From IMG/VR virus record IMGVR_UViG_3300044673_000108, positions 1-41,738 of that record: a stretch of 41,738 bases of DNA. One strand, given 5' to 3'. A model generated the notes under the pieces. It was not told the DNA's origin and ran no database searches. It worked only from the letters and a program-made list of their open reading frames with translations. The translations under genes and the position numbers were made by a program. Of this stretch, positions 3,965-41,738 are shown piece by piece. How positions within the stretch are numbered: the first letter of the stretch is position 1; the number at the start of each line of letters is the position of its first letter. The DNA comes from a virus.

Positions 3965-3981
3965 CCCTTCTCCTTCCTCGC

Positions 3982-4584: not shown

Positions 4585-4637
4585 CTGGTTCCTCCTGTTG
4601 GTTTCGATGGGCGGGTCCGCTTAGCTGTTCGTTAGGC
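4515..4637 (+). other. attC 9 (long, carries a start codon)
   Basis: R'' GCCTAAC 4515-4521 and R' GTTAGGC 4631-4637; 123 bp. Arms GCTCAAGTCGGACCCCGCCC and GGGCGGGTCCGCTTAGC. The roughly 60-bp terminal segment holds AGGAGG and ATG on the minus strand. Confidence 0.88.
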
Positions 4638-4916
4638 GTCTCTAAGCGCCTCGGTTGCGATCATCACGGCCTCAAACGACCCGGAAAACCGCTCGGCGGC
4701 GATGTCCTCCAGGGCCTTGCGGAACCGGTCTCTCTCGCGGTCGTGAATCAGGTTCATCTGGGCGCGGAACACGCCCGCCTCTTCAGCGGTGATCTGAACC
4801 CGCTCGCCACGCATGATTGCCTCGGTCTTCTCGGGAGACAGCAGCCCCAGAAAGGGGAGGTCTCGCCTAACCCCGCGCTCAACCGGACCCTTGGGCTCGT
4901 TGCTTTCGTCCTGCAT
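4632..4916 (-). CDS. Cassette 10: protein with attC-encoded N-terminus
   Basis: 94 aa from ATG 4916 (MQDESNEPKGPVERG) behind GGAGGCAAC, both inside the attC 10 loop. The first 17 residues are attC sequence. The body (LPFLGLLSPEKTEAIMRGE ... REDRFRKALEDI-type helix) is a small helical protein. The TAA stop is in the R' core of attC 9. No family recognised. Confidence 0.7.
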   Translation of the reverse strand: MQDESNEPKGPVERGVRRDLPFLGLLSPEKTEAIMRGERVQITAEEAGVFRAQMNLIHDRERDRFRKALEDIAAERFSGSFEAVMIATEALRDA

Positions 4917-4962
4917 GTTGCCTCCGTTCGGCCCAAGGGCCGGTTAGCTTCTTCCGTTGGGC
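4865..4962 (+). other. attC 10 (carries a start codon)
   Basis: R'' GCCTAAC 4865-4871 and R' GTTGGGC 4956-4962. The arms GCTCAACCGGACCCTTGGGC and GCCCAAGGGCCGGTTAGC pair almost perfectly, with C and A unpaired on the left. Confidence 0.92.
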
Positions 4963-4966
4963 CGCT

Positions 4967-5182
4967 CTACCAGTGCGCCTCATAACTCGTTTCGGGGCCG
5001 CTTGCCACATACTCCCCGGCATCGTCGTATTCCGTGAAGTTGTGGGGCTGCCCGCAGCAGGCGCACCCGGCTTCAGTTGCGCTGAGGCCCGTGATTCGCT
5101 CCCACTCATCAGCCGCTTCCCGCAGGCTCAGGCCATGTCGGGTCGCGTGGCTGGCCAAGGCCCCTAGCTTTTCGTTAGGCAC
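4967..5182 (-). CDS. Cassette 11 / array-edge gene, cysteine-containing
   Basis: 71 aa from a GTG at 5182 that overlaps the R' core at 5174-5180, starting (M)PNEKLGALASHATRH. It has a Cys cluster (GCACCGQPHNF). The TAG stop is 5 bases from the R' core of attC 10. There is no clear ribosome-binding site; the start overlaps the end of the 5175-5561 gene, so translational coupling is likely. Function unknown. Confidence 0.6.
   Translation of the reverse strand: MPNEKLGALASHATRHGLSLREAADEWERITGLSATEAGCACCGQPHNFTEYDDAGEYVASGPETSYEAHW
5113..5180 (+). other. Degenerate attC at the array edge
   Basis: The right half is intact: CTAGCTTTTC then GTTAGGC at 5174-5180, matching the ends of attC 6. On the left only a weak arm (GCTCAGGCC) is visible and no RYYYAAC core. 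The reading frame of the 4967 gene runs through it. This looks like an eroded site marking the border between array and phage operon. Confidence 0.5.
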
Positions 5183-5561
5183 TCATCTTATTTGGCGTAA
5201 TCCGCCCTTTGGCGGCGACGATGAACCCCCAATGCTCACGGTTGCGATACCAGAGGCGCATCACATACCAGTCCGCGAAGTCGCCGTTGCGGAAGCCGCT
5301 CGCCAGGGCAAGCTGCTCATCCCACAGGGCGCGGTGTTCGGCCCGGTTCTCGCGGAGGTGATACCGCCTGATCGTGTCCGTGATGTATTCGGCGGCGTGG
5401 GCCTCGCGTAGCTGGGTTTCCAGTTCGAGGTTCCGAGCGTAGTGGTCGCTGGTTTCGTCCCGTTCGCACTGTTCCCGGTAGATCCCGAGGGCTACGGCGG
5501 TCCCAGCGGTGATGATGATGATGGACCATAGCCAATTCATCGCTGCCTCGGGCTCAGGCAT
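5175..5561 (-). CDS. Membrane-anchored hypothetical protein at the operon/array junction
   Basis: 128 aa from ATG 5561 (MPEPEAAMNWLWSI); ATG at residue 8 is also possible. One N-terminal membrane helix (NWLWSIIIITAGTAVALGI), then a charged helical cytoplasmic or periplasmic part. Its TAA stop is contributed by the R' core at 5174-5180, as in cassette genes, although no attC follows on its other side. It overlaps the preceding gene by 8 nt. Confidence 0.65.
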   Translation of the reverse strand: MPEPEAAMNWLWSIIIITAGTAVALGIYREQCERDETSDHYARNLELETQLREAHAAEYITDTIRRYHLRENRAEHRALWDEQLALASGFRNGDFADWYVMRLWYRNREHWGFIVAAKGRITPNKMSA

Positions 5562-5721
5562 CGTCCCCCCTCTCGGCACCAACCGAATGGAGCAGCGCGA
5601 GGGCGTCCTGAATCTTGTTCAGCTTGTTCAACCGCCTCACTACTTCTTCGATGGGAACGGGGCACCCATGTTCGAGGATGGCGGCTCCATCGCTCATGAT
5701 TCCTCCGGTGTATCGGCTCAT
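5554..5721 (-). CDS. Small hypothetical protein
   Basis: 55 aa from ATG 5721 (MSRYTGGIMSDGAAIL) behind AAAGGACG. The in-frame ATG at 5697 has its own GGAGG and would give 47 aa. The C-terminal half is helical (IEEVVRRLNKLNKIQ). Its stop overlaps the next start. Function unknown. Confidence 0.55.
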   Translation of the reverse strand: MSRYTGGIMSDGAAILEHGCPVPIEEVVRRLNKLNKIQDALALLHSVGAERGDDA

Positions 5722-5743
5722 TGGTTCGTCCTTTCGAGGGTCA

Positions 5744-5912
5744 TGCAGATGGACAGGTGCTATCGCTGTGCGTTGGCGAGGGTGAGCAGTTCAGCGGCGC
5801 TCTCGTAGTCCTTCACGGAGCAAGCACGGGCAGCGGTTTCTTCGAGCCAGTTCACAAGGTTATTCATGGGTTCCCCTTTCGTGGGATGGGTCGTGCAGAT
5901 GGACAGGTGCTA
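5744..5912. repeat. Repeated 19-bp intergenic element
   Basis: TGCAGATGGACAGGTGCTA occurs at 5744-5762 and 5894-5912. Each copy starts at a TAG stop on the minus strand and is followed by CGAAAGG-type ribosome-binding sequence and an ATG. A related element (GATGGACATATTCACTT) is at 6333-6349 and 6810-6826. Confidence 0.75.
5760..5867 (-). CDS. Very small hypothetical protein
   Basis: 35 aa from ATG 5867 (MNNLVNWLEETAARA) behind AAAGGGGAACCC. Amphipathic helical sequence ending LLTLANAQR. TAG at 5760 begins the repeated intergenic element. Function unknown. Confidence 0.5.
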   Translation of the reverse strand: MNNLVNWLEETAARACSVKDYESAAELLTLANAQR

Positions 5913-6161
5913 CTTGGTTGCGAGGGCTTCATAGAGAACCGATGCGGGATACAGGCTCCAGTCACGCCCATCCATCACGACTATCTGGACGATCCGTTCT
6001 CGTTCCTCATGCTTGGCGGCAATCCTGGCGTTCAGGACAGTGGTAGCGATCTCGGGAGGGTATCCGTCCAGCCCATAGCTTTCTTCGATCTTGAGGGCTT
6101 CGCTGGACCCATCCCGCATCGCCAGCATGTAACGCTTCATGTCTTTGACTTCATCGCGCAT
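5910..6161 (-). CDS. Hypothetical protein
   Basis: 83 aa from ATG 6161 (MRDEVKDMKRYMLAM) two bases after the upstream stop, with GGGGGC as ribosome-binding site. Mixed alpha/beta sequence ending YPASVLYEALATK. Part of the tightly spaced leftward early operon. No family recognised. Confidence 0.65.
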   Translation of the reverse strand: MRDEVKDMKRYMLAMRDGSSEALKIEESYGLDGYPPEIATTVLNARIAAKHEERERIVQIVVMDGRDWSLYPASVLYEALATK

Positions 6162-6163
6162 CG

Positions 6164-6322
6164 TTAAGCCCCCAGCCAGATTTCAGGGTTTGACCCCGGA
6201 ACGGTCACGGGTTGAGGCGCAGGCAATTCGCGCACGGGTTTGGCGGCATTGGGATCGGGGTGAATGTGCGGCTCTCCAATGTCCTGGATGATGTCTAAGC
6301 ACTTCTCGCAGTAACGGCGCAT
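6164..6322 (-). CDS. Small protein with N-terminal CxxC-like motif
   Basis: 52 aa from ATG 6322 (MRRYCEKCLDIIQDI) behind GGAGGAACC. YCEKC near the start could bind metal; the second half is proline-rich (ELPAPQPVTVPGS). Short hydrophilic early phage protein of unknown role. Confidence 0.6.
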   Translation of the reverse strand: MRRYCEKCLDIIQDIGEPHIHPDPNAAKPVRELPAPQPVTVPGSNPEIWLGA

Positions 6323-6332
6323 GGTTCCTCCA

Positions 6333-6349
6333 GATGGACATATTCACTT
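6333..6349. repeat. 17-bp intergenic repeat, copy 1 (copy 2 at 6810-6826)
   Basis: GATGGACATATTCACTT is identical in both places. On the minus strand it reads AAGTGAATATGTCCATC and in this copy overlaps the TGA stop of the 6344 gene just before a GGAGGAACC-ATG start. In the second copy its ATG could itself be a start codon. Confidence 0.65.
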
Positions 6350-6565
6350 GCTGTTGAGAAGGGCGGTGCAGAGGCAGAGGGCACAAGAACCCGGCTCATC
6401 GGTTCCGCAGTCGCAGCCATCGTTTTCCATCCAAGCCACGGCTGGCTCAATCGCCGCCTCCAGCTTTGCGTTACGAGCAACGAGGCGATCCCGTTCCTGG
6501 CTGACCTTCAGGTATTCCTTGAAGTAATCCACGGGGTTCCTTTCTTCCAGGTCGATCCTGGACAT
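6344..6565 (-). CDS. Small coiled-coil protein with C-terminal cysteine cluster
   Basis: 73 aa from ATG 6565 (MSRIDLEERNPVDYF). Helical middle (VSQERDRLVARNAKLEAAI) and a C-terminal cluster CDCGTDEPGSCALCLC that probably binds zinc. Similar layouts are common in small phage early proteins. Function unknown. Confidence 0.65.
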   Translation of the reverse strand: MSRIDLEERNPVDYFKEYLKVSQERDRLVARNAKLEAAIEPAVAWMENDGCDCGTDEPGSCALCLCTALLNSK

Positions 6566-6572
6566 GCTCGGG

Positions 6573-6818
6573 CTAGACCCAAGACAGGTTGTTCATTTTG
6601 TGATGCAGGGCGAAGCACTCGGCATGGACCTGTTTGCACTCCACGATTCCGCCATCTTCGGTGCCAGGGATAGCCACCAACACCACGGGCGCGTCAGCCT
6701 TGGACCGACAGATCAGGCACTCGAAATTGACTGGGTTGGGATGCTCGAAAATCCGGCTTGGGTATTTGAGTTCAGGACCGCTCATGAGTGCCTCGGAATG
6801 GTGGTGAAGGATGGACAT
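6573..6818 (-). CDS. Zinc-finger-like hypothetical protein
   Basis: 81 aa if started at ATG 6818 within the repeated element (MSILHHHSEALMSGP), or 70 aa from ATG 6785, which has a GAGGC site. Longer upstream readings are unsupported. CLIC and ECKQVHAECF form a CxxC/CxxxHxxC arrangement consistent with one zinc site. Function unknown. Confidence 0.6.
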   Translation of the reverse strand: MSILHHHSEALMSGPELKYPSRIFEHPNPVNFECLICRSKADAPVVLVAIPGTEDGGIVECKQVHAECFALHHKMNNLSWV

Positions 6819-6910
6819 ATTCACTTCGTTGATGATTGTTGAGACACTATCTCGATGTAACCCGCACAGTTGCTGGGTCCAAGGTTCCGCTCCGTGAAGT
6901 TCACAGGACA

Positions 6911-7159
6911 CTAAACTGCCTCACCCCATGCGCCCATTCGGATCGCCTCATACCTGGCATCCCACGCTCGGGTGTCCTGCGCTCGGGTTGACTTCATCCG
7001 TGCGACCTTGGCGGCATCCTGGATGCGGTAGATGCCCCAGGCGGCCTGTTCATCCATGGTGAGGGGGCGGACCTTGGCGGGTTCAGCGGCAAACACGGGC
7101 CATAAAAGGCAGAACGCGGCGAAGCATCCCAGGGGAACCAGCACAATCACGGCGATCAT
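6911..7159 (-). CDS. Membrane or exported hypothetical protein
   Basis: 82 aa from ATG 7159 (MIAVIVLVPLGCFAA), overlapping the upstream stop as ATGA. The first 24 residues form a membrane helix or signal peptide ending FAAEPAK. The rest is charged and helical. No family recognised. Confidence 0.65.
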   Translation of the reverse strand: MIAVIVLVPLGCFAAFCLLWPVFAAEPAKVRPLTMDEQAAWGIYRIQDAAKVARMKSTRAQDTRAWDARYEAIRMGAWGEAV

Positions 7160-7338
7160 CGCGGCATCTCCTTTTGAATCCGGGCCATTGCATCAATGTC
7201 TGCATTGAACTTCCGAGCGTCCTCTGCGGCTTTGCGGCGGGCCTGGATATTGTCTGAGGCGGCGACGATGAATCCACAGAACGCGGCCATAAGGAAGCCG
7301 ATCTCTAGCGTGATGACGGCGGCTTTGAACGCTCTCAT
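7156..7338 (-). CDS. Small single-span membrane protein
   Basis: 60 aa from ATG 7338 (MRAFKAAVITLEIGF) behind GAGGG. Membrane helix at about residues 7-27, then a charged helix (NIQARRKAAEDARKF). ATGA overlaps on both sides. Function unknown. Confidence 0.6.
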   Translation of the reverse strand: MRAFKAAVITLEIGFLMAAFCGFIVAASDNIQARRKAAEDARKFNADIDAMARIQKEMPR

Positions 7339-7595
7339 GCGGCCCTCTTTCGTTTGCGGGGCATGGGCTCCCGGTAGATGTAATCCGACTTGGGCAGGCA
7401 GGTAGGGGCTTTGCGCTCGAAGATCATGCGGAACCTCCCGGTATCTACCTCGGACTGGAGCCTGTCGCGTGTATTCGTCCACCGTGCCAGGGCGTGGGAC
7501 CATCCGGCGTATTGCTCGGGTGTCATCTCATGCACTGGGCAGGGCTGAATGGGGCGGGCGTCAAGGTGCGCGGTGAGGGCTTCTAGGGGCGTCAT
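7335..7595 (-). CDS. Hypothetical protein
   Basis: 86 aa from ATG 7595 (MTPLEALTAHLDARP), overlapping the stop of the annealing protein gene as ATGA. Basic C-terminus MPRKRKRAA. It probably works near the recombination gene, but no domain is recognised. Confidence 0.6.
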   Translation of the reverse strand: MTPLEALTAHLDARPIQPCPVHEMTPEQYAGWSHALARWTNTRDRLQSEVDTGRFRMIFERKAPTCLPKSDYIYREPMPRKRKRAA

Positions 7596-8347
7596 GCGGA
7601 CTTCACCGGGTATTTGGCAATGGTCCGCTGGCAGTAGGCATGGAGTCGGTTCGCCCACTTATCGAAGCCGATGGTGGTATCTCCGATGGTGGATTCAGGC
7701 TTCCTTACGATGGTCTTGATTTCAGACTCATCCACGCTGCGCTCCAACAGAATGTCGGCAAGGTCGGCAATTAGGTTCTTCGCATTGGCGTAGTCATCGT
7801 CGGACCACGGGAACTCTTCGGCGGTGACGGGAGGCTCCCACGCCTTTGCCTGCGCTCCGGGGATCGTCTCGGCTTCCGTCTCGTCCAGCATCCCGAGGCC
7901 ACAATGGGCCAGGACAGCGCGGCGGATCGCCTTGGTGGTCGCCTTCAGCATGGCGTTGGCCTTGGCCTCGCCCTTGAGCCCCGCCACGGGCACGGCTCCC
8001 ATGTTCTCGGTGCTGCGCTGGTCCGGTCCTTTGACCTCGACAAAGACGCAGTAGATGTCGTCCACTAGTTCCCGCAGGGTCACGCGATGGGACAGTCCAT
8101 GAATGGCAGTAAGCTGCTGGGTGCAGGCGGCGTTAGCGTAGAGGATTTCCTTCCCGTTCAAGGTCAAGAGGTCAAAGGGCTTCGCGGCGGGGTCCAGTCC
8201 GGCCTGCTGGCATCGGTAGTTATAGAAGGCTACCTTCTGCCCTGCGTCCAGCCGCTTGAGGTCGCCATTGATGACGAGGCTACTGATGACATGCGGGTCC
8301 AGCGTCATCAGGGGCTGAGTGGTGGTGGTTCTGACTTCTGCGTTCAT
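7592..8347 (-). CDS. RecT/Bet-like single-strand annealing protein (putative)
   Basis: 251 aa from ATG 8347 (MNAEVRTTTTQPLMT); earlier starts lack a ribosome-binding site. The central region reads FYNYRCQQAGLDPAAKPF, then LNGKEILYANAACTQQL, then GLKGEAKANAMLKATTKAI and GLGMLDETEAETIP. These blocks match a widespread phage early protein family with RecT/Bet-type features (a quorum-like KxGLDPxxxPF start and a KAxTKAxRR helix). In lambda the equivalent gene lies at this place in the PL operon. The C-terminal 80 residues are more variable. Annealing activity is inferred from the family and position. Confidence 0.65.
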   Translation of the reverse strand: MNAEVRTTTTQPLMTLDPHVISSLVINGDLKRLDAGQKVAFYNYRCQQAGLDPAAKPFDLLTLNGKEILYANAACTQQLTAIHGLSHRVTLRELVDDIYCVFVEVKGPDQRSTENMGAVPVAGLKGEAKANAMLKATTKAIRRAVLAHCGLGMLDETEAETIPGAQAKAWEPPVTAEEFPWSDDDYANAKNLIADLADILLERSVDESEIKTIVRKPESTIGDTTIGFDKWANRLHAYCQRTIAKYPVKSA

Positions 8348-8583
8348 GCGACACCTTTCAGTAGATACGCGGCTGACTTCTCCAGTGCCCGGCGCAAGGG
8401 CCTTTCCGCAGCTTCCACGGCACAATCCGGAGCGTGCTGCTCGTAGTCCGGGGCTCCGCAGGATGTGCAGGAACACCCCATCTGGTGACGGGCGTCATTC
8501 CACGCCTCTTCCCATCCGAGGCCGTGATCAAGTGATGCGCGGATCTGTTCCCGCATGTAGATGATCATTTCTTCGGCGTTCAC
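8344..8583 (-). CDS. Small cysteine-rich hypothetical protein
   Basis: 79 aa from GTG 8583 (M)NAEEMIIYMREQIR, the GTG overlapping the upstream stop (GTGTGA). CSCTSCG and a further Cys (DCAVEAAERP) suggest metal binding. Stop overlaps the start of the annealing protein gene. Function unknown. Confidence 0.6.
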   Translation of the reverse strand: MNAEEMIIYMREQIRASLDHGLGWEEAWNDARHQMGCSCTSCGAPDYEQHAPDCAVEAAERPLRRALEKSAAYLLKGVA

Positions 8584-8753
8584 ACGGCCTCCGCCGGCAT
8601 GGGTAGGCGCTTGGCCAGCACCTCCAGGGCCTTGCGGGCCGCTTCCATTCCTGTGGCCCGGTATTCCCCGGTGTAGGCCCGCTGCCCGTCAATGGTGAGG
8701 ATTGGACGCCAGCCGTAGTCATCGTCGTGGTCGAGGGTGATGGACACTTGCAT
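8580..8753 (-). CDS. Small hypothetical protein
   Basis: 57 aa from ATG 8753 (MQVSITLDHDDDYGW), three bases after the stop of the 8756 gene. Beta-rich start followed by a helix (GMEAARKALEVLAKRL). Function unknown. Confidence 0.6.
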   Translation of the reverse strand: MQVSITLDHDDDYGWRPILTIDGQRAYTGEYRATGMEAARKALEVLAKRLPMPAEAV

Positions 8754-8755
8754 GG

Positions 8756-9370
8756 CTACACCGCCTTCCCAAGCGACTTGGCGAGGTCCCCCGCGAAGCT
8801 GACCATATCGAGGGGGGCGAAGTTTGGAGCGGGGTGGGCCTGCTCGATGGCATCCATGGCCTCGTCCTCTTCCGGCGTGGCGACGGGGATGGAGTCGGCG
8901 TGTTCCATGCCGTAGGGACCTAAAAACCACCTGCCATCGCCAATGACCTCGGCGTTTCCTTGGCCATTGAAGTTGACGAGCCTGCCCGCTTCGACAATCC
9001 CGATATCACCACGCGAGAACCACGGGCGGTCCCCCAGTGTGACGCGAACACGATCACCAACCTTAAACGGACGCGCCTTCCGTGCCGCGATGGTCCGGGC
9101 GATATCGGCGGCGAAGGGTTCCTCTGAAAACGGCGGTTCGTCGGCAATGGCCCGCATCGCATCGTTCCCCGTCGCATGGCTGGGATGCACACAGTCATCA
9201 CCACAGGCGCAGTCATCGCCGTAGTCATGGCGGATGATCCTCCCCGCGCTGCGCTCAATCGAGGCACCCAGCGCCATGGCGCGTTCTACGGCCATGGGCT
9301 CGTCCAGATTGAGGCCAGCGATGGAGGCTTGTAGGCCCTTCAGGACATCCAGTTCGGTCATGGGGTTCAT
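8756..9370 (-). CDS. SH3-like beta-barrel domain protein
   Basis: 204 aa from ATG 9370 (MNPMTELDVLKGLQA) behind ATAGGAGCCGAC. A central Cys cluster (CACGDDCVHPSH) is followed at about residues 105-150 by FKVGDRVRVTLGD, RGDIGIVEAG and a GRWFLG strand, typical of a small KOW/SH3-like barrel. Role in the phage unknown; nucleic-acid or protein binding is possible. Confidence 0.6.
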   Translation of the reverse strand: MNPMTELDVLKGLQASIAGLNLDEPMAVERAMALGASIERSAGRIIRHDYGDDCACGDDCVHPSHATGNDAMRAIADEPPFSEEPFAADIARTIAARKARPFKVGDRVRVTLGDRPWFSRGDIGIVEAGRLVNFNGQGNAEVIGDGRWFLGPYGMEHADSIPVATPEEDEAMDAIEQAHPAPNFAPLDMVSFAGDLAKSLGKAV

Positions 9371-9378
9371 GTCGGCTC

Positions 9379-9465
9379 CTATGCGGCCTGTGGGATCGGA
9401 TGGATGGGCGCTGGCGTTTTCGGCCCAGGCGGATGGGGTGGGATGAATCGGACGATGCGTTTCAT
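9379..9465 (-). CDS. Proline-rich micro-ORF
   Basis: 28 aa from ATG 9465 (MKRIVRFIPPHPPGP) with a strong GGAGGA site and correct spacing. It ends 8 bases before the next start. Six or more prolines. It may be a real microprotein or a leader for the 8756 gene. Confidence 0.4.
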   Translation of the reverse strand: MKRIVRFIPPHPPGPKTPAPIHPIPQAA

Positions 9466-9591
9466 GGCAGTCCTCCGGCTGGCCTACTGGCCTGTGGTGG
9501 TGGGGTTGCGGTTCAGATGGGGGTGGTGCGAGGGATTCTTTCCCCTCTGCCAACCCGACCAGGATGTTTGGGTCTGAGCTGCCCCCGCGCG

Positions 9592-9699
9592 CTACGGGTG
9601 CCTTCCCTGGAGCCGTCTATTGGTAATTTGCTCCGCTGCCCGAATCAGGGTGTCCAGGTCGCTCACGGGCGGGTATGCCCATCCGTGCCCTCGATGCAC
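9592..9699 (-). pseudogene. Possible gene remnant or small ORF
   Basis: A minus frame with coding-like sequence (RIQFGVHRGHGWAYPPV then SDLDTLIRAAEQI) ends at TAG 9592. It has no ATG; GTG 9699 or 9666 are the only starts, and it is stopped upstream at about 9750. It may be the tail of a decayed gene. Confidence 0.3.
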
Positions 9700-10257
9700 C
9701 CCGAATTGAATCCTTGGGGCCAGACGCGACCCTGGCTTTGTGGGCCTTCAGCAGTGATCGCAGCCCAACCGTCCTAGGCTCTAGTTGACAGTTTGCCGAG
9801 CCGTGCTGCCGTTGTTGTGGATCCGGGGGCACCCGGGTTTCAGCCTCTACTCCCCCCAACGAACAGAACAGGTATTCGGTAGTAACCCCCAACCGATCAC
9901 ACTTCCGTGCATGTCGCTTACATGCTTCCCAAGGAACTTGAAACCGGATGGTAGTCGTCTCTTCTACTCTGTGACCGCCCCGCCTTACGGACAGAGGCAT
10001 CCGGTGTGTATCGTCTGGAGGAAAGCCGCTGTGTGGGCCTTCCCTCAAACGATAGGTGCCGGTGGTGAGCGCTCGAATGCCTCACTATGTAGCGCCCCAT
10101 TGCCATGATGGACAGAAGGCACCGGCTGATTTTGTATCCACGCAGCTGCACAACGCTGACCGTGGGGTTTCCGGCACTCTTGCTACATTGGCCGGTTATC
10201 AAAGATCAAGGGGGCCGAGGCCCTGGAGAAAACGGCCGTAGCCGCTTTCCTCAAGGT
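9700..10257. other. Early-operon gap without a convincing gene
   Basis: About 560 bases between the first PL gene and the rest of the operon hold only overlapping frames of low coding quality on both strands and no good ribosome-binding site. Position suggests an untranslated leader, antitermination site or small RNA, or a decayed gene. I see no strong terminator in it. Confidence 0.4.
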
Positions 10258-10446
10258 CTAGCTGGCCTTCAGGTAATCGACGGTGCGGAGCTTCTCCTGC
10301 TCAATCAGCTCGTCCAGATGGCCCATCACGGCCCCGTAGTGGATCGCTTCCCGCTTGGTGTGGCTGGCCTTGCGTGACCAGTAGTCCTGCTCAAGGTCCA
10401 GCTTGATCCGGCGAAGCTTGGCGATTCGGCTGTTGGTTGCGCTCAT
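10258..10446 (-). CDS. First gene of the leftward (PL) operon
   Basis: 62 aa from ATG 10446 (MSATNSRIAKLRRIK) behind AAGGAGCCGAC. Basic N-terminus followed by helical sequence (YWSRKASHTKREAIHYG). It lies directly after the duplicated promoter/operator block. Its place and basic start recall lambda N, but there is no sequence evidence for antitermination. Confidence 0.6.
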   Translation of the reverse strand: MSATNSRIAKLRRIKLDLEQDYWSRKASHTKREAIHYGAVMGHLDELIEQEKLRTVDYLKAS

Positions 10447-10480
10447 GTCGGCTCCTTGGGTGGCCTTGCTTTGATGTCCC

Positions 10481-10523
10481 ATACTCGCTCTTTCTGTGAG
10501 CATGGTCAAGGGGCGAATCTCAC
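10481..10523 (-). promoter_or_regulatory. Leftward early promoter/operator (PL/OL-like)
   Basis: On the minus strand a GTGAGAT half-site, GCCCCTTGACC (TTGACC as a -35) and CTCACAGAAAGAGCGA follow in order. The same series occurs on the + strand at 11290-11326. The -10 is weak (GAGTAT or TATGGG). An adjoining AATCTCA/TGAGATT inverted repeat with T-runs lies at 10516-10540. Confidence 0.65.
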
Positions 10524-10550
10524 TTTTTTTGAGATTTTTTGTCAGGGCAC

Positions 10551-10572
10551 AAAAAACCCCTCTTTCGAGGGG
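10551..10572 (-). terminator. Rho-independent terminator, leftward
   Basis: On the minus strand CCCCTC-GAAA-GAGGGG is followed by six T. It ends the two-gene transcript of the immunity region just before the PL-like promoter, separating the repressor-side transcript from the early operon. Confidence 0.85.
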
Positions 10573-10608
10573 CTGGATTCGGGACTGTTTTCTATCTGGA
10601 GGGGGGCG

Positions 10609-10803
10609 TCAGGCAGCTCCGTCCTTATCCTTCCGCCGATACCACCAGGTGGGGATGGCGACGAACCAGGGCCTATGTTCCTCGTCCAGCATCAAGCGGG
10701 GCTGATCGAAGTCTGGATGCTCCACAAGCGGCACCCCCAATTCTCTGGCGGCCTCGTGGCTTCCGGAGAGTGTGTCGCGCTTATGGGCGAACCGCTTGGG
10801 CAT
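10609..10803 (-). CDS. Immunity-region small protein
   Basis: 64 aa from ATG 10803 (MPKRFAHKRDTLSGS) behind GAGGTGG. Ends WYRRKDKDGAA. It is second in the leftward transcript that starts beside OR and ends at the 10551 terminator, so it is probably expressed in the lysogen. Possibly a superinfection or accessory lysogeny gene; no family recognised. Confidence 0.6.
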   Translation of the reverse strand: MPKRFAHKRDTLSGSHEAARELGVPLVEHPDFDQPRLMLDEEHRPWFVAIPTWWYRRKDKDGAA

Positions 10804-10818
10804 GGGGCCACCTCGATG

Positions 10819-11241
10819 TTAGCGAGGCTTGCGAATCGCTCCAGCCTCGATGAGATCCTGAAGAGCATTAAACACCTTCTCGGCATCTTCATCTGAGGTA
10901 TTAGGATCGGCCAAATATTTTGTGATGGATTGCCGGGCTAGGCGTTTGGCCGGGCTGGGCAAATCATGCGTTGCTCCGTAGATTTCGCTTTCATCTACAC
11001 CCCACCGTGCCGCTGCCAGCTTGATCACCGGCCTCTTCGGGGCGCGCCTGTGGTCATGCCGATATGCGGTCCTCAGGCTGGCCCCGGTGGTGAGGCCAAT
11101 GGCAACGGCTACCGTCTGAAAGGCGGCGTCCTCGCTCATACCCTGCGCCATCAGTTCCGCAACGTCCGAATCCACGAGCTGCATGAAACGATCCCTCTGT
11201 TTCCAGGGATCGTCTTCGCGTGGTTTACGTGGTCGCGCCAT
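10819..11241 (-). CDS. Putative repressor-position DNA-binding protein
   Basis: 140 aa from ATG 11241 (MARPRKPREDDPWKQ). No Shine-Dalgarno site is visible and the upstream stretch is AT-rich (CAAATAATG), so a leaderless transcript like lambda cI from PRM is possible. Basic N-terminus; the middle (RTAYRHDHRRAPKR, AARWGVDESEI) could form a helix-turn-helix. It occupies the cI position, divergent from the Cro-like gene and next to the OR-like block. Repressor function is inferred from position only. Confidence 0.5.
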   Translation of the reverse strand: MARPRKPREDDPWKQRDRFMQLVDSDVAELMAQGMSEDAAFQTVAVAIGLTTGASLRTAYRHDHRRAPKRPVIKLAAARWGVDESEIYGATHDLPSPAKRLARQSITKYLADPNTSDEDAEKVFNALQDLIEAGAIRKPR

Positions 11242-11287
11242 GCATGAAGGATCTACATTATTTGCATATTTTGCAATATCACCCAGA

Positions 11288-11337
11288 CTGTGAGATCGCC
11301 CCTTGCGTTTCTCACAGAAAGAGCGACCATGTAAGGT
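11288..11337 (+). promoter_or_regulatory. Rightward early promoter/operator (PR/OR-like)
   Basis: A perfect inverted repeat CTGTGAGA (11288-11295) / TCTCACAG (11310-11317) overlaps a TTGCGT -35-like box and is followed by AAGAGCGA, as in the OL-like copy at 10485-10523. The start codon at 11338 is only about 20 bases beyond, so the leader is very short. Confidence 0.65.
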
Positions 11338-11607
11338 ATGAGGATCGAGATTCCGAAGGGCCACACCGCCTCCAGCATCGCTGAGGCTTGCCGCGTCCAC
11401 CCGGCGTCTATCAACCGGGCCTTGGCCGATTACGATGAAGCCACGGGCATCCATGTCTGCTCCGGCACGCTCGCCATCGCTATTCACTACGCCACCGGGG
11501 GGCGGGTCAAGTGCTGGGACCTGCGTCCTGACTACTGGAAGCGGGGCCAGATGCCGCCGAAGCCTTTGCGCGTTCAAGACGGCCCACCTTCGGACTTGGC
11601 CGCGTGA
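11338..11607 (+). CDS. Cro/YdaS-like transcription regulator
   Basis: 89 aa from ATG 11338 (MRIEIPKGHTASSIA). The N-terminal helix-turn-helix region (TASSIAEACRVHPAS) and the segment GTLAIAIHYATGGRVKCWDLRPDYW match small Cro/YdaS-type phage regulators, which end with an LRPDYW-like motif. First gene of the rightward operon, directly behind the OR-like block. Probably antagonises the lysogeny repressor. Confidence 0.75.
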   Translation: MRIEIPKGHTASSIAEACRVHPASINRALADYDEATGIHVCSGTLAIAIHYATGGRVKCWDLRPDYWKRGQMPPKPLRVQDGPPSDLAA

Positions 11608-11726
11608 GCCGCCCTCCGCGCTTCCTCAAGGGCCTGCCGCGCCGCTGCCTGAATCTCCGGCGTTCGCCCAAACATGGCGAGGGCTTTGAGGGGGATGAGT
11701 TCGGGGATGTAAACGGCTTTTTCCAT
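11574..11726 (-). CDS. Possible antisense small ORF
   Basis: 50 aa from ATG 11726 (MEKAVYIPELIPLKA) with GGAGG nine bases upstream. The sequence looks like an ordinary helical protein (TPEIQAAARQALEEARRAA) but it opposes the rightward operon and overlaps the end of the Cro-like gene by 34 nt. No gene fits the same interval on the + strand. Confidence 0.35.
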   Translation of the reverse strand: MEKAVYIPELIPLKALAMFGRTPEIQAAARQALEEARRAAHAAKSEGGPS

Positions 11727-36516: not shown

Positions 36517-37692
36517 GTGAAAGTCGCGCTGTCAGACAAGATCATCGGGGGGGTGGATCATTCTAGCATCCTGGAAGGGCGGGAACGCCGCACCCTTTGG
36601 GATGCCTCACAGAAGGGGCTGGGCCTGCTGGTCCATAAGTCGGGAACCCTAGCCTGGGTCCTGCGCTACTCCATGCGGGGGCAAAACGGGCAGACCACGC
36701 TGGGGCAATGGCCGGATCTCCCCTATGCCATGGCGAAGAAAAAGGCCCAATCGCTCCGGGGCCAGATTGCGGATGGGATAGACCCAGCCAAGGTGAAGGA
36801 TGGAGCCAAGACGGTTAAGGATCTGGCGGCAGACTTTGAAAAGGACTATCTGCCTGGGCTGGCTGCCTCCACCTCGCGGACCTATAAGATGCTGATCAAG
36901 CGCCATATCCTGCCCAAGATTGGGCGACTGCTGGCGGATGAGGTAGCACTTCAGGACGTTGCGCGGGTCCACCATGCGCTCCGGGGCCAGCCCAGGACGG
37001 CGAACCAAGCATTAGCAGTCCTGTCTCGAATGCTGAACCTTGCGGAGCGGTGGGGATACCGGCCCGTAGGCTCGAACCCATGTAGTGCCATCGGGCGCTT
37101 CCCTGAGACCAAGCGGGAACGATACCTCACGGCGGAGGAAATGCAGACGCTGGGGGACAAGATCAGGGTGGAGGAATTGGCCGGATGGAACCCCTACACC
37201 ATCGCGGCCCTGCGGTTCGCCATGCTCACGGGAATGAGGCGCGGAGAAGTGGCGGGGCTGAAGTGGAGCCAGATCAAGGGAGACAAGGTGGTCTTCACTG
37301 CGCGGCGGGAAGACGCCTCTACGTCATCCAAAACCGGGGCAAAGACGATCCCACTCAACCCGCCTGCCAAGGCCATCCTGGGGGGGCTCACGCGGATGCT
37401 GGGCAGTCCCTACGTGTTCCCGGGTGAACAGGGCGGGCCATGCACGGGAAGCCTCAAGAACCTCTGGTATAAGCTGCGCGAAGAAACCACCTTCGCAGAC
37501 GTTCGGCTCCATGACCTTCGGCATACCTTCGCATCCATCGGCATCATGGAGGGCCTGACTCTTGAGCAGATCGGGGGCCTGCTGGGGCACAAGGCGGCGG
37601 CTACGACCAAGCGATATGCCCATCTAATGGAAGAGGCCGCACGGGTGGCGGCCTCAAAAGTCGGGAGCGAAGTGGTCAAGCGGCTTGGATAG
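36517..37692 (+). CDS. int: Tyrosine integrase (P4/DUF4102 type)
   Basis: 391 aa from GTG 36517 (M)KVALSDKIIGGVDHS. The N-terminal arm-binding domain has LRYSMRGQNGQTTLG, a SAM-like core-binding domain lies at about 105-190, and the catalytic domain has Arg in LTGMRRGEVAGL (about 238), HDLRHTFAS (about 331), LGHK (about 355) and Tyr in TKRYAHL (about 367). It should drive integration at tRNA-Leu. The N-terminal arm domain marks it as a phage/island integrase and not an integron IntI. Confidence 0.92.
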   Translation: MKVALSDKIIGGVDHSSILEGRERRTLWDASQKGLGLLVHKSGTLAWVLRYSMRGQNGQTTLGQWPDLPYAMAKKKAQSLRGQIADGIDPAKVKDGAKTVKDLAADFEKDYLPGLAASTSRTYKMLIKRHILPKIGRLLADEVALQDVARVHHALRGQPRTANQALAVLSRMLNLAERWGYRPVGSNPCSAIGRFPETKRERYLTAEEMQTLGDKIRVEELAGWNPYTIAALRFAMLTGMRRGEVAGLKWSQIKGDKVVFTARREDASTSSKTGAKTIPLNPPAKAILGGLTRMLGSPYVFPGEQGGPCTGSLKNLWYKLREETTFADVRLHDLRHTFASIGIMEGLTLEQIGGLLGHKAAATTKRYAHLMEEAARVAASKVGSEVVKRLG

Positions 37693-37873
37693 TGCTGGAG
37701 TAGCTGGGCTGGGCCTCAATCCATGCGTCTAGGTCGCACTGGCGGAACCTCACCAGCTTCTTGCCGAGCTTGATGAACCTCGGCCCCGTCCCGTCGTGCA
37801 TCATGGTTTCGAGGGTGCGGAGGGATATAGCTAGATATTTGGCCGCCTGTTTTTTGGTAAGCAGCTCAGTCAT
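37676..37873 (-). CDS. Excisionase / AlpA-like DNA-binding protein
   Basis: 65 aa from ATG 37873 (MTELLTKKQAAKYLA). Residues 1-50 are a MerR-like excisionase helix-turn-helix (KQAAKYLAISLRTLETMM, then FIKLGKKLVRFRQCDLDAWI). Convergent with int, overlapping its last codons. Last gene of the leftward operon, as xis in lambda. Confidence 0.8.
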   Translation of the reverse strand: MTELLTKKQAAKYLAISLRTLETMMHDGTGPRFIKLGKKLVRFRQCDLDAWIEAQPSYSSTIQAA

Positions 37874-38288: not shown

Positions 38289-38506
38289 GGCTTCACCTCG
38301 CCGCATGACTCAATGGCCTTGCGGATCAGGCCCATAAACTCTTCCGGCTTGTCCAGATCAATGGCCCATCGCTGGGTTTTGATCACGGCGTAATGTCCCC
38401 CGCCTCCGTCTTCCGTGGTGATCTCGATTTCATTGTCGGAGATGCCTCCTGGGGCGCAACAGTCGGCGTCTTCGGTCACAAGCATGGTAATGGATTCAAT
38501 GTTCAT
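38285..38506 (-). CDS. Small hypothetical protein
   Basis: 73 aa from ATG 38506 (MNIESITMLVTEDAD). Beta strands followed by helix (MGLIRKAIESCGEVKP), CC near residue 16. Starts inside the end of the 38496 gene. Function unknown. Confidence 0.6.
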   Translation of the reverse strand: MNIESITMLVTEDADCCAPGGISDNEIEITTEDGGGGHYAVIKTQRWAIDLDKPEEFMGLIRKAIESCGEVKP

Positions 38507-39338
38507 CGGACTCCCCGCTGCACTTGGAGCAGAAGTAGGGACTCGGCGGTAGGCATCGGTCGTGCCCGTTATCGGCGGGGCCTCCGCACTTCGGGCACTT
38601 GGACAGGTCGGGCCCCTCCCCGCTCTCCGTGCCGAGGATGGCGGCCTTGACTCTTCTCAGCCGTTCATACTGCTCGTCTGTACATAATTCCCGCCCTGCG
38701 ATATCGAGCAGATCCTCTAGGTCGGAGCGGACGGACTCGATCTTGCTCCGTTCATCATCCCTGATGCGCTGCTCGGCATCGGCCCCGGCCTGGGCGGTGG
38801 TGGCGAGGGCGGCCTTGATCGTGTCCAGGACGTAGCCGTGGCTCTGGTTGTGCCGTGCGATATCCCAGGAATCTGACTCCGCGAGGGTCATTCGCATGAA
38901 TGCCGCAGCATCACGCTCAAGACAACCGCCGATCTCCTCGCGCACCTTACCCAGCGCTTCGGTCAATCCCAGCACCTCGCGGTCACGCTGGGCGAGGGTG
39001 ACCTCTAGTTCTGCGGTATTCCGCTCAAGCTGGGCGTTGCAGAGATTGGCCCACTCATTGGCATCACGGACGATCCGCGCCCCGGCCTGGGCGATCTCGG
39101 CACACTGGGGGCCCCATGTGCGAAGTTCTTCGATGAATTTGCGAAGTTCTTCGATGAATTCTAGTGAGTACTGTCCTGATTCCTGTTCAGGCACGGGCGG
39201 CACCAGGGGCGCGGCTTGCGGGTCGGTTGAGCCCAGCGCCTTATTTGGGAGGCCGCAAACGCACGCGATCACGGGCCTTCCGTTGTTCATGCCGCACCCC
39301 AAGGCGTGGGCAGTAGCTGGGTACAGGTGGTCAGTCAT
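38496..39338 (-). CDS. Coiled-coil protein with C-terminal zinc ribbon
   Basis: 280 aa from ATG 39338 (MTDHLYPATAHALGC). Residues about 55-70 contain a 7-residue duplication (EFIEELR-KFIEELR) coded by a 21-bp tandem repeat. A long helical middle follows, then a zinc ribbon (CPKCGGPADN ... YFCSKCSG). First phage gene left of the cassette array on the main genome. Role unknown. Confidence 0.65.
   Translation of the reverse strand: MTDHLYPATAHALGCGMNNGRPVIACVCGLPNKALGSTDPQAAPLVPPVPEQESGQYSLEFIEELRKFIEELRTWGPQCAEIAQAGARIVRDANEWANLCNAQLERNTAELEVTLAQRDREVLGLTEALGKVREEIGGCLERDAAAFMRMTLAESDSWDIARHNQSHGYVLDTIKAALATTAQAGADAEQRIRDDERSKIESVRSDLEDLLDIAGRELCTDEQYERLRRVKAAILGTESGEGPDLSKCPKCGGPADNGHDRCLPPSPYFCSKCSGESDEH
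39124..39165. repeat. 21-bp in-frame tandem duplication
   Basis: GCGAAGTTCTTCGATGAATT appears twice in direct succession with one extra base per unit. It adds exactly seven residues to the coiled coil, so it is frame-preserving. Confidence 0.85.
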
Positions 39339-39439: not shown

Positions 39440-39471
39440 GGATTGCGAGTTCGTATAAAACAAAGTTGGGC
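39440..39471 (+). other. attI-like recombination site (main phage)
   Basis: Ends TATAAAACAAAGTTGGGC, core GTTGGGC 39465-39471. TAAAACAAAGTT is identical to the end of class 1 attI1. No attC arms pair with it. First cassette of this arm follows directly. About 100 bases further left lie TTAGGCGAACCGC and a complementary GCGGTTCG, comparable to the inverted repeat beside the left attI-like site. Confidence 0.65.
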
Positions 39472-39473
39472 GC

Positions 39474-39692
39474 TTAGTCGTAGCTCTTGAGTAAGGATTC
39501 GAGATTGAGAATCCGGTTTTGCATGGCAGTGATGCCGTTGTGAATCCCGACTTGATGGAACCCGTAGGAATCCAGCAGGGCGCGGCACACGGTCAACTCG
39601 TTCGTTGCCCGTTCAAGTTCATCGGCTAGGCGCATGTTCTCGCTGATGCCGCCTTCGATCTGTTCGTCCATCTTTTGGGCCATGTAATCCAT
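39474..39692 (-). CDS. Cassette R1: coiled-coil protein
   Basis: 72 aa from ATG 39692 (MDYMAQKMDEQIEGG) behind GGAGGAACCAG. Heptad-like (ENMRLADELERATNELTVC ... NRILNLESLLKSYD). TAA stop three bases from the core. Longer upstream starts extend towards attC and are not needed. Function unknown. Confidence 0.65.
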   Translation of the reverse strand: MDYMAQKMDEQIEGGISENMRLADELERATNELTVCRALLDSYGFHQVGIHNGITAMQNRILNLESLLKSYD

Positions 39693-39713
39693 CTGGTTCC
39701 TCCCGGGCATCGC

Positions 39714-39788
39714 GCCCAACCATCTCGCTCAACCCCGCTTCGCTCGGACCCGCGCAAGCGCGGCCCGGGTTAGCTCGGGGCGTTGGGC
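39714..39788 (+). other. attC R1
   Basis: R'' GCCCAAC 39714-39720 and R' GTTGGGC 39782-39788. Arms GCTCAACCCCG...GGACCCG and CGGCCCGGGTTAGC. Nearly identical to attC L2 apart from the loop. Confidence 0.9.
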
Positions 39789-39789
39789 G

Positions 39790-39993
39790 TCAGTTAAGGT
39801 GGTCGTTGATTTGTTCGACAGAGATGGCGAGATCCCCAATCACCTCTTTGGTCGCCGCGATGGTTCGGTGGAAGTGGTCTTCCATTTCGGCCCGCTGGAG
39901 TGCCCGAACCGCCATGACGAGCGATCTCTGGGCAGAGGAAAACTGGTCTCGTGCGGCAATCAGGTATGGAATCTCTTTCGATTCGTGGGGCAT
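39790..39993 (-). CDS. Cassette R2: helical protein
   Basis: 67 aa from ATG 39993 (MPHESKEIPYLIAAR), two bases from R'', so its AGAGGG site is in the attC. Continuous helix (RSLVMAVRALQRAEMEDHF). TGA at 39790 beside the R' core. Function unknown. Confidence 0.6.
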   Translation of the reverse strand: MPHESKEIPYLIAARDQFSSAQRSLVMAVRALQRAEMEDHFHRTIAATKEVIGDLAISVEQINDHLN

Positions 39994-39994
39994 C

Positions 39995-40089
39995 GCCCAA
40001 CCCTCTGCTCAACTCGGACCCCGCCTGGTCCGTGATTTTTAAGGGTTTCGCTAACCGCAGGCGGGGCCGGTTAGCTTCATTCGTTGGGC
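39995..40089 (+). other. attC R2
   Basis: R'' GCCCAAC 39995-40001 and R' GTTGGGC 40083-40089. Arms GCTCAACTCGGACCCCGCC and GGCGGGGCCGGTTAGC. Spacer TTCATTC before R' as in attC 8. Confidence 0.9.
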
Positions 40090-40090
40090 G

Positions 40091-40378
40091 CTACTCATCG
40101 CCGCAGAGGCGACAAAGGTAAACATCTTCTGCCTGGTGCCACCCATCGCCTTCGCAGATGGGCTTGCCGCATGCCTCACAGAACGACACGAACTCGCGGT
40201 CGTTGATGGCGAGGATCTGGGCTCCCTTCGGGAGGCTGGCTCGGATGCCATCAAGCGAGGTGGCCTGGAAATCGAGGGTCAGCCGGTACTCGATCTTGAA
40301 GACCTCGCCCAACCCACCGCTCAACTCGGACCCAACCGCGTCCGGCAACTCTCCGGGATTTCCGGATACTTCGGTCAT
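40091..40378 (-). CDS. Cassette R3: zinc-ribbon protein with attC-encoded N-terminus
   Basis: 95 aa from ATG 40378 (MTEVSGNPGELPDAV) behind GAGGAG, both in the attC R3 loop. The first 24 residues are attC sequence. Body: IEYRLTLDFQATSLDGI, then C-terminal FCEACGKPIC and CRLCGDE forming a zinc ribbon. TAG directly after the R' core. Function unknown. Confidence 0.7.
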   Translation of the reverse strand: MTEVSGNPGELPDAVGSELSGGLGEVFKIEYRLTLDFQATSLDGIRASLPKGAQILAINDREFVSFCEACGKPICEGDGWHQAEDVYLCRLCGDE

Positions 40379-40432
40379 GGTTCTCTCCTCAAAATGGTGC
40401 TGCGGTTGGTCCGGTTAGCGGGACCGTTAGGG
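40307..40432 (+). other. attC R3 (long, carries a start codon)
   Basis: R'' GCCCAAC 40307-40313 and R' GTTAGGG 40426-40432; 126 bp. Arms GCTCAACTCGGACCCAACCGC and GCGGTTGGTCCGGTTAGC, with unpaired C and T on the left. Confidence 0.9.
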
Positions 40433-40651
40433 CTCCCGCCGATCAATGCAGTCATCCATGCTGCGGTAGTAGAGGGCCGGGAACCGCTCGCGCCAGGCTC
40501 TGACTTCGGCCTCCAGCTTCGGTCGCGTGATGCAGCAGAGCGGCTGGGGGAATGCTCTTTCAAAACTGAAGGGGGTGATCAGCGCCCTAACCGTCTCGCT
40601 CAAGTTGGACCCTACCGCGCTCGGCTTCGGGGTTCCAGGTGTCTCACTCAT
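40427..40651 (-). CDS. Cassette R4: protein with attC-encoded N-terminus
   Basis: 74 aa from ATG 40651 (MSETPGTPKPSAVGS) behind AGGGAG, in the attC R4 loop; an ATG six codons upstream is possible. The first 22 residues are attC sequence. The body contains CCITRPKLEAEVRAW and RSMDDCIDRREP. The TAA stop is in the R' core. Function unknown. Confidence 0.65.
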   Translation of the reverse strand: MSETPGTPKPSAVGSNLSETVRALITPFSFERAFPQPLCCITRPKLEAEVRAWRERFPALYYRSMDDCIDRREP

Positions 40652-40711
40652 GGTTTTGTTCTCCCTCATGATTTGTGATGCGGTAGGGCCACTTAGCTCG
40701 GGTCGTTAGGC
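40585..40711 (+). other. attC R4 (long, carries a start codon)
   Basis: R'' CCCTAAC 40585-40591 and R' GTTAGGC 40705-40711; 127 bp. Arms GCTCAAGTTGGACCCTACCGC and GCGGTAGGGCCACTTAGC. Confidence 0.88.
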
Positions 40712-40816
40712 CTCGAACATCGGGCTCGTCTGAATCCCGTTCGGGGTGCCAAATCGCCTGTTCGGCCGTTCTGCTTGGGGTTTCGTGGGGGGCGTGCGCT
40801 CATGGTGGCAAGTCAC
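40706..40816 (-). CDS. Cassette R5: possible basic small protein
   Basis: 36 aa from GTG 40816 behind AGGAAAGAG, (M)TCHHERTPPTKPQAE, or 49 aa from GTG 40855. It ends TSPMFEA with TAA inside the R' core, as other cassette genes do; this agreement is the main support. No other frame fits the cassette. Function unknown. Confidence 0.4.
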   Translation of the reverse strand: MTCHHERTPPTKPQAERPNRRFGTPNGIQTSPMFEA

Positions 40817-40888
40817 ACGTCGCTCTTTCCTATCTCCGCTCGGTTTTCCCGTCACCCCGGTTCAGTCCAGGTCAGAACTGGCGTCTCG

Positions 40889-41012
40889 GCCTAACCTTCA
40901 GCTCAACTCGGACCCCGCCTGCATTGTCTCCCGCTCTCTCTCAGCTTCTCGCTTTCTCGGCTCCGCTCGTCGCCTCGGTGCAGGCGGGTCCGGTTAGCTC
41001 CCTTCGTTAGAC
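40889..41012 (+). other. attC R5 (long)
   Basis: R'' GCCTAAC 40889-40895 and R' GTTAGAC 41006-41012. Arms GCTCAACTCGGACCCCGCCTGC and GCAGGCGGGTCCGGTTAGC. The loop has an ATG, but that frame stops at once, so here the loop is not a gene start. Confidence 0.9.
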
Positions 41013-41246
41013 CTTGTTCCCGTCTGCGTATTCGGTGTGCCAAGAGCAGATAACCCGCCGATTCCAGGCCCGTTCCGCCGCAACCTTCGTTTCCAGCCAT
41101 GGCCCCTCGGCGGCGCACTGGTTGCAAACCGCCCAATGGCTCGTCCCATCAGTCGTGAATAGCCGCGCACTCCCCCCACAGAATGGGCAGGGGTCTAACC
41201 GTGCGCTCGACTCGGACCCTGCCTCAGGTGCGTTCTGATTCGTCAT
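41007..41246 (-). CDS. Cassette R6: Lar-like restriction alleviation protein
   Basis: 79 aa from ATG 41246 (MTNQNAPEAGSESSA) behind AAAGGAACC in the attC R6 loop; the first 18 residues are attC sequence. The body LDPCPFCGGSARLF, AVCNQCAAEGPW and AAERAWNRR matches the Lar family: two CxxC pairs followed by a terminal AxxAWNRR. Rac-prophage Lar relieves type I restriction by promoting modification. The TAA stop is in the R' core. Confidence 0.75.
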   Translation of the reverse strand: MTNQNAPEAGSESSARLDPCPFCGGSARLFTTDGTSHWAVCNQCAAEGPWLETKVAAERAWNRRVICSWHTEYADGNKV

Positions 41247-41292
41247 GTCGGTTCCTTTCTCCGGCAGGGCCGGTCAGCTTGGGTCGTTAGGC
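41193..41292 (+). other. attC R6 (carries a start codon)
   Basis: R'' GTCTAAC 41193-41199 and R' GTTAGGC 41286-41292. Arms GCTCGACTCGGACCCTGCC and GGCAGGGCCGGTCAGC, unpaired bases on the left. Confidence 0.9.
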
Positions 41293-41466
41293 GTAGACCA
41301 GCACCCAAGCCCACGCTGCGAAGCCAATCCCCATGAGAAGGAAGACCACATCCTCGCCCAGGTTGTATTTCACGGTCCTTGGGTAGTCGCCAACCATCAT
41401 GGCGAGGGCTCGCGCAACGATTCCCGCGATGCCGAACCAGAACGAAAACTTGATGTAGAGGTTCAT
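41287..41466 (-). CDS. Cassette R7: two-span membrane protein
   Basis: 59 aa from ATG 41466 (MNLYIKFSFWFGIAG) behind AAGGAGCAC. Two apolar helices (about 5-25 and 42-58) separated by GDYPRTVKYNLGED. The TAA stop is in the R' core. Function unknown. Confidence 0.65.
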   Translation of the reverse strand: MNLYIKFSFWFGIAGIVARALAMMVGDYPRTVKYNLGEDVVFLLMGIGFAAWAWVLVYA

Positions 41467-41497
41467 GTAGTGCTCCTTATATGGGGTTTTTGGTGGC

Positions 41498-41578
41498 GCC
41501 TAACCCGGCGCTCAGCCTTCGCTCACTTCGTTCGCCGGACCCCGGCTGCGCCGGGCCCGGGCTAGCTGTTCGTTAGGC
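41498..41578 (+). other. attC R7
   Basis: R'' GCCTAAC 41498-41504 and R' GTTAGGC 41572-41578. Arms GCTCAGCC...GGACCCCGG and CCGGGCCCGGGCTAGC. Confidence 0.88.
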
Positions 41579-41738
41579 GCGTGGCATAACGCTGAGATCA
41601 ATGTATGGACTGCCGCACAGGTGGAGCTGCCACGCCCGCCGCCCGTGCGGCTTGGGAGTCGCGTCCTCTTCCCCTTGGCGGAAGATGGTTCCGCAAGCCT
41701 TGATGATCGCGGCCACCAGTTCTTCGGCGGGCACGGCT
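41573..41738 (-). CDS. Cassette R8: partial copy of the cassette 5 gene
   Basis: The last 55 codons of the same nucleotidyltransferase-like protein as 2964-3377, cut by the window end. Only one base differs over the aligned stretch (C at 3002, T at 41611). The upstream attC differs (R7 here, L4 there), so the same cassette stands in two contexts. Confidence 0.8.
   Translation of the reverse strand, partial: AVPAEELVAAIIKACGTIFRQGEEDATPKPHGRRAWQLHLCGSPYIDLSVMPRA
41612..41738. repeat. 127-bp terminal overlap with 3003-3129
   Basis: Every base of 41612-41738 equals 3003-3129, and the preceding base differs. A length of exactly 127 suggests an assembly-graph k-mer overlap where the contig end rejoins its own interior. 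Confidence 0.85.

Follow-up and report, generated by a model that had tools for sequence, protein, structure and literature searches.

Integrons are regarded as a bacterial gene-capture system, and the locus described here raises the question of whether a phage can carry one, and in what form. The window, by which we mean the whole stretch of DNA analysed, is the entire IMG/VR record IMGVR_UViG_3300044673_000108 (41,738 bp, linear). A sequence-only reading of it had proposed that the early operon of a P22-like temperate phage holds a genuine cassette array, a proposal supported by the P22-type virion genes, by the integrase and excisionase (xis) genes and by a comparison of flanks among relatives. 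The sequence covers nearly the whole genome of a P22-like temperate phage. Its virion genes are of P22 type (terminase; portal, phrog_156; scaffold, phrog_8865/648; coat, phrog_283; head closure, phrog_578; ejection, phrog_598), and its lysogeny module has an integrase and an excisionase. Its two attC arrays each begin at an attI-like site, and we consider it likely, at a probability of about 0.78, that they are phage integron platforms without an integrase of their own, served in trans by the integron integrase (IntI) of the host. The sequence-only reading was right about the array in the phage. It did not notice that each array has an attI-like site at its start, that the cassette genes are reversed, that unrelated phages carry such arrays, or that an integrase is absent and probably supplied by the host.

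Two attC arrays

About 18 sites with attC hallmarks had been claimed at 1695-5180 and 39714-41578, and we identified 17 complete sites and one half site, in two arrays (array A, 1486-5180, and array B, 39465-41738). The sites of both arrays end in RYYYAAC and GTTRRRY, and their inner boxes pair with a single extra base on one side. As in an integron cassette array or a cluster of attC sites lacking an integron integrase (CALIN), at least two sites share one orientation, have R''-L''-L'-R' boxes and carry an extrahelical base, and the attC-bounded units hold one (or a few) open reading frames (ORFs). No clear gene was found in the cassette at 40706-41006.

A strict box scanner identified 12 sites, on the + strand and with the extra base in the 5' inner box, and gave two hits in total over 20 order-2 Markov nulls. 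A covariance model, the check that had been suggested, was trained on 16 attC sites of chromosomal integrons (Holophagaceae and a verrucomicrobial metagenome-assembled genome (MAG), none from the window) and found 15 significant sites (E from 6e-30 to 1e-4), all on the + strand and all within 1695-5000 or 39714-41578; elsewhere in the window, the next-best match reached only E=0.19. Array A is composed of A1 (1695-1791, 61.8 bits, E=2.5e-14), A2 (1967-2057, 25.0 bits, E=1e-4), A3 (2210-2287, boxes only, missed by the model), A4 (2911-2969, boxes only, 92% identical to a site of the siphophage L023, described below), A5 (3394-3457, 28.6 bits), A6 (3723-3807, 29.6 bits), A7 (3982-4079, 47.1 bits), A8 (4287-4380, 62.5 bits), A9 (4515-4637, 69.5 bits), A10 (4865-4962, 54.0 bits) and, at its end, a half site seen in the sequence with L' and R' only (5155-5180). 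Array B is composed of B1 (39714-39788, 35.5 bits), B2 (39995-40089, 72.9 bits), B3 (40307-40433, 35.0 bits), B4 (40585-40711, 49.9 bits), B5 (40889-41012, 121.6 bits), B6 (41193-41292, 72.4 bits) and B7 (41498-41578, 28.8 bits). All are on the + strand. B5 is of host type: along its full length it is 90% identical to the 124-bp attC family found in the chromosomal integron of Geothrix fuzhouensis. Bottom-strand folding produced R and L stems, unpaired spacers and extrahelical bases in several attC sites (A5 folds with z=-4.15), and no R/L-stem structure in others.

attI-like sites at the array starts

The attI-like site A (1443-1492, + strand) consists of an upstream box, TTAGGCGAAC, and then GTTCGTCTAATACAAAG followed by TTGGGC, ending at 1492. 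Site B (39447-39471, + strand) reads GAGTTCGTATAAAACAAAG followed by TTGGGC; its core can also be given as GTTCGTATAAAACAAAG followed by TTGGGC, ending at 39471, before the first cassette. Next to intI in Holophagaceae chromosomal integrons, attI reads CCGTCCAATWCAAAG followed by TTAGGC, with a TAGGCGAAC box about 40 nt upstream, as at site A. Judged by sequence, each window array begins at an attI-like site matching the chromosomal attI of Holophagaceae (Acidobacteriota), and the attI of a complete integron, with a core and an upstream box common to host attI, is present. Polarity of attI and attC agrees in the window (+ strand). The core CGTCTAATACAAAG followed by TTRGGC, or a close variant, is found at both window array starts and in four other phage loci (L009, L023, L043 and L060), and an attI-like site followed by reversed cassettes also occurs in a P22-like record (L060/L114) and in two other phages (L065 and L049).

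The first attI pattern search returned 26 viral loci, only two of them with attC sites downstream; a later pattern gave five hits, which we judged to be chance. On a contig of a verrucomicrobial MAG (L042), an attI core identical to the phage attI is followed by cassettes of another attC family, of which at least the first gene appears to be forward.

Same flanks, different cassettes

A search of viral contigs with the portal protein found no relatives, so relatives were sought by attI and attC patterns. The sequence-only reading had named, as the result that would support it, phages with the same flanks and different cassettes, and such phages exist for both sites. At attI A, the 43,125-bp siphophage L023 (IMGVR_UViG_3300044712_001935) is 98.9% identical to window positions 1-1496 over 1496 bp, up to the attI R box, and then carries entirely different cassettes. 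At attI B, the 43,069-bp T7-like phage L009 (IMGVR_UViG_3300042876_000299), which has no integrase, shares the flank at 86-89% and continues with other cassettes, part of one cassette being common at 95%. A similar array is found in the isolate Geothrix fuzhouensis SG12, within a Mu-like prophage (transposase phrog_310, MuB-like phrog_296, portal phrog_113) 57 kb from the isolate's own intI. The carriers are of unrelated types (P22-like, T7-like, siphophage and Mu-like) with almost nothing in common apart from the arrays and their flanks. Unrelated phages of the same kind of soil and sediment bacterium appear to carry the same setup with different genes, and to trade them through a host enzyme.

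Within the window, one cassette is present in both arrays behind different attC sites (2963-3129 and 41572-41738, 1 mismatch in 167), and the two copies diverge exactly at R'. The attC site at L043:5602-5701 is 98% identical to B6 (window 41193-41292), yet the genes joined to them differ; it seems that attC ends and gene bodies are exchanged independently.

Other carriers were also observed. The 55,216-bp record IMGVR_UViG_3300038549_000019 contains the same attI and array twice (L106 and L108), about 35.3 kb apart, and is probably an over-assembled circular phage genome. The 36.9-kb siphophage record IMGVR_UViG_3300025451_000030 (L109) has about 18 attC sites, among the densest arrays, and no attI was recognised in it. 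The siphophage relative G002 encodes two different phage-type tyrosine integrases (L040:15315-16400 and L039:9388-10560), and one protein of the SG12 prophage (L087:17127-17801) belongs to an RNA polymerase sigma factor family (phrog_351).

Cassette genes of reversed polarity

Genes of a complete integron read from attI to attC, and the phage arrays are reversed: cassette genes in the window are on the - strand, opposite to attI/attC polarity, which suggests that they are read by the phage leftward operon instead of an integron promoter. Both arrays lie within a long series of leftward genes. It extends from about 11,726 to 5175, array A, the DUF3850 gene (920-1354) and the contig ends, and past these through array B and the gene at 38496-39338 to xis; we infer that this series is continuous across the contig ends.

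In several cassettes a Shine-Dalgarno sequence and an ATG are located inside attC, so that the first residues are encoded by the hairpin. A9 contains both for the reverse gene 4342-4584 and B6 for the Lar gene (41007-41246), and A10 and B3 contain the starts of the reverse genes 4632-4916 and 40091-40378, respectively. Substitutions in the shared cassette gene 4632-4916 (- strand, common to L009 and L043) are concentrated at third positions of the - frame (2, 2, 7 and 8, 6, 28 at codon positions 1, 2, 3), and Pfam, NCBIfam and phage homologues of cassette genes were found in the reverse frame. Phage-type cassette genes across the arrays include Lar anti-restriction, C5 methyltransferase and HNH genes. 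The others recognised in the window, all on the - strand, are a 196-aa gene (2281-2871) with full-length matches to Pseudomonas, Caulobacter, Sinorhizobium and Streptomyces phage proteins, a cassette gene of a phage family (2964-3389; the second copy starts at 41573), the zinc-ribbon-like gene at 40091-40378, and the Lar-family restriction alleviation gene (TIGR03655, 46.1 bits, cut-off 39.6; PF14354, 44.4 bits). In Pseudomonas phage Dolphis, a gene similar to 2281-2871 sits in what looks like an ordinary gene string.

Among the viral contigs found by attI and attC patterns, 53 attC sites have a reverse gene starting there and 3 a forward gene ending there, versus 4 reverse and 25 forward in host chromosomal integrons (Fisher p=3e-14, a value overstated because related attC sites were counted as independent). 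Codon-usage scoring trained on phage genes is poor on host cassettes, so polarity was re-counted by a self-trained gene caller, which gave 59 reverse and 5 forward in viral arrays versus 4 and 24 in chromosomal ones, and by a longest-ORF rule, considered below with the alternatives. For each of the first nine cassettes of the Geothrix host integron, the longest ORF points from attI to attC. The published phage record MW202573, which holds a CALIN, also has annotated genes opposite to its attC sites; in the published CALIN of TJE1 neither the strict scanner nor the covariance model detected attC, and its polarity was consequently not scored.

Source of the integrase and traffic with the host

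A complete integron encodes intI, and in the window no protein passes the TIGR02249 cut-off of 265 (best, 26 bits), nor does any in the relatives tested; the T7-like carrier L009 (genome G001) lacks PF00589 proteins altogether. Of 77 Holophagaceae genomes, 46 encode IntI, and the Geothrix chromosome that holds the prophage array encodes one scoring 462 bits. The attC family, attI and cassettes are shared between the window and Geothrix, and the host of the window phage was probably a Geothrix relative (Holophagaceae). In another Holophagaceae genome (G032, L115:11250-11589), the chromosomal integron cassette nearest attI has an attC of phage type, 87% identical to those of the Geothrix prophage and of phage L072, and a reversed gene starting inside attC. 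Since tblastn found no phage homologue of this inverted cassette, it is phage-type by attC and architecture only. Cassettes appear, from such likenesses, to cross both ways between phages and host integrons.

Proposed mechanism and alternatives

We propose that two cassette platforms without their own integrase sit in the phage leftward early operon, each made of an attI-like site, which would have been copied from, or evolved to match, the host integron attI, and then of attC-bounded cassettes. During infection or lysogeny, host chromosomal IntI would act on single-stranded attC hairpins, recombining them with the phage attI or with one another, so that cassettes could be inserted, excised and shuffled. 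The phage leftward operon, not an integron promoter, would read the cassette genes. This would give the phage exchangeable small early genes, anti-restriction functions among them, from a cassette pool common to unrelated phages, with leakage to and from host integrons. We infer cassette recombination by IntI in trans, the host of the window phage, transcription from the early promoter and a benefit. The reversal might arise because the phage operon must read the cassettes while function fixes attI polarity; another idea is that it silences host cassettes in the phage, and phage cassettes in the host. A further step, on which we are evenly balanced, is that phages own a distinct integron class, integrase-less, with a host-mimicking attI and a separate inverted cassette pool, traded among unrelated phages of one host group via host IntI, the inversion keeping the pools functionally apart while the recombination hardware is common. 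In such a class, host cassettes, many possibly of anti-phage defence, may land antisense and silent in the phage, and phage cassettes silent in the host integron.

Several points weigh against platforms served by host IntI. The gap between the two record ends could hold an integrase, although G001 and G002 also lack IntI. The longest-ORF rule gives a weaker polarity contrast (48 reverse and 22 forward versus 9 and 36), to be read together with the overstated p-value. The Holophagaceae link is drawn from shared attC, attI and cassettes, not from a known host of the record. In addition, some cassettes with near-identical attC sites hold different genes, and a mosaic is seen within the ORF of one shared gene, which suggests that homologous recombination also reshuffles cassettes. 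These last features, with the lack of intI in the phages and the 98% identical attC pair of B6 and L043, agree with passive CALINs, picked up long ago from host integrons and now shuffled only by homologous recombination between similar attC sites (lambda Red-like or RecA), with no site-specific exchange. However, host-derived cassettes would mostly face forward, whereas the phage ones face backward, attI-like sites with host attI boxes are retained at array starts of unrelated phages, and the junctions are at the R box; we consider this history unlikely.

It is highly improbable that the repeats are not recombination sites but RNA hairpins, which would set where translation starts or end transcription between early genes and would resemble attC by convergence. 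All repeats are hairpins, and in several the following gene has its ribosome-binding site and start codon within the repeat, but a model made from IntI-linked chromosomal attC sites detects them (E down to 6e-30), one is 90% identical to a host attC family, and neither the extra-base asymmetry nor the attI match would be necessary for such a role. Even harder to credit is movement of the cassettes by the phage's own tyrosine integrase: its gene (36517-37692) adjoins array B, but the protein is of phage type (phrog_1), far below the cut-off of the integron integrase model, and the T7-like carrier does without any PF00589 protein. To an assembly chimera of phage and bacterial integron, which the sequence-only reading had named as refuting its claim and which the end of the record inside a repeated cassette would fit, we give almost no credence, as the flank-attI-array junction recurs in independent records of other metagenomes, a similar array is present in a prophage on the chromosome of a cultured isolate, and the gene polarity is unlike that of host arrays.

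Relation to known systems

Whether such arrays had been described was left open in the sequence-only reading. Small attC clusters in phages had already been reported: Qi et al. (2023; PMC9892861) give 17 phage CALINs and 4 complete integrons or parts of integrons for 10,705 phage genomes, and showed in Escherichia coli that IntI1 recombines five phage attC sites with attI1. Like the window, these are attC clusters without intI in phage genomes, and they also include methyltransferase cassettes. The CALIN detailed there (TJE1) has 3 attC sites, versus 17 in two arrays in the window, each at an attI-like site. In the part of that paper drawn on here, phage attI sites accompany integrons captured from hosts (Vibrio, Shewanella, P1), and there is no account of reversed cassette genes or of sharing between unrelated phages. 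A literature search, outside which lay most subscription papers and all preprints, found no paper on inverted-polarity phage attI platforms or Geothrix integrons. Phage attI sites, the array size and the reversed polarity appear to be new.

The sedentary chromosomal integrons of Geothrix and other Holophagaceae (G008 C2:387622 and relatives) share their attC family with the window and differ little from it in attI core and upstream box; unlike it, they encode IntI and have dozens of cassettes with forward genes. In class 1 integrons, attI1 (5' conserved segment, 5'-CS) ends in TAAAACAAAG followed by TTAGGC. This end is nearly the same as site B, whereas the window has no intI1 and no resistance cassettes among the gene families found. 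As in the lambda/P22 leftward early operon, small early genes, including Lar-type anti-restriction, lie between the early promoter region and xis/int, but in the window each run of accessory genes starts at an attI site and has attC sites as its gene boundaries.

If the proposal is true, phage accessory-gene diversity (anti-restriction, methylases) would gain a site-specific exchange common to unrelated phages, and host integrons and phages would make up a single gene market in which the reading directions are opposed. It would also offer testable answers on the precise swapping of small early phage genes and on cassette movement between cells.

Genes around the arrays

An Rfam scan of the window gave no match. 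The right end of the record is the second copy of the repeated cassette, and the record stops inside it; this is probably an assembly break at the repeat, leaving a gap between the two record ends. The leftward early genes upstream of array A are gene calls at 5175-11726 (- strand), and the first fixed gene beyond attI A is the DUF3850 gene (920-1354, - strand; PF12961, 70.3 bits). The P22-like terminase, portal, scaffold, coat, head closure, ejection and tail genes occupy 16161-36228 (+ strand). They are followed by the phage tyrosine integrase gene (36517-37692, + strand; phrog_1, not IntI, TIGR02249 26.2 bits vs the cut-off of 265), the excisionase-like gene (37676-37873, - strand; phrog_66) and the fixed gene beyond attI B (38496-39338, - strand), whose flank is also present in L009.

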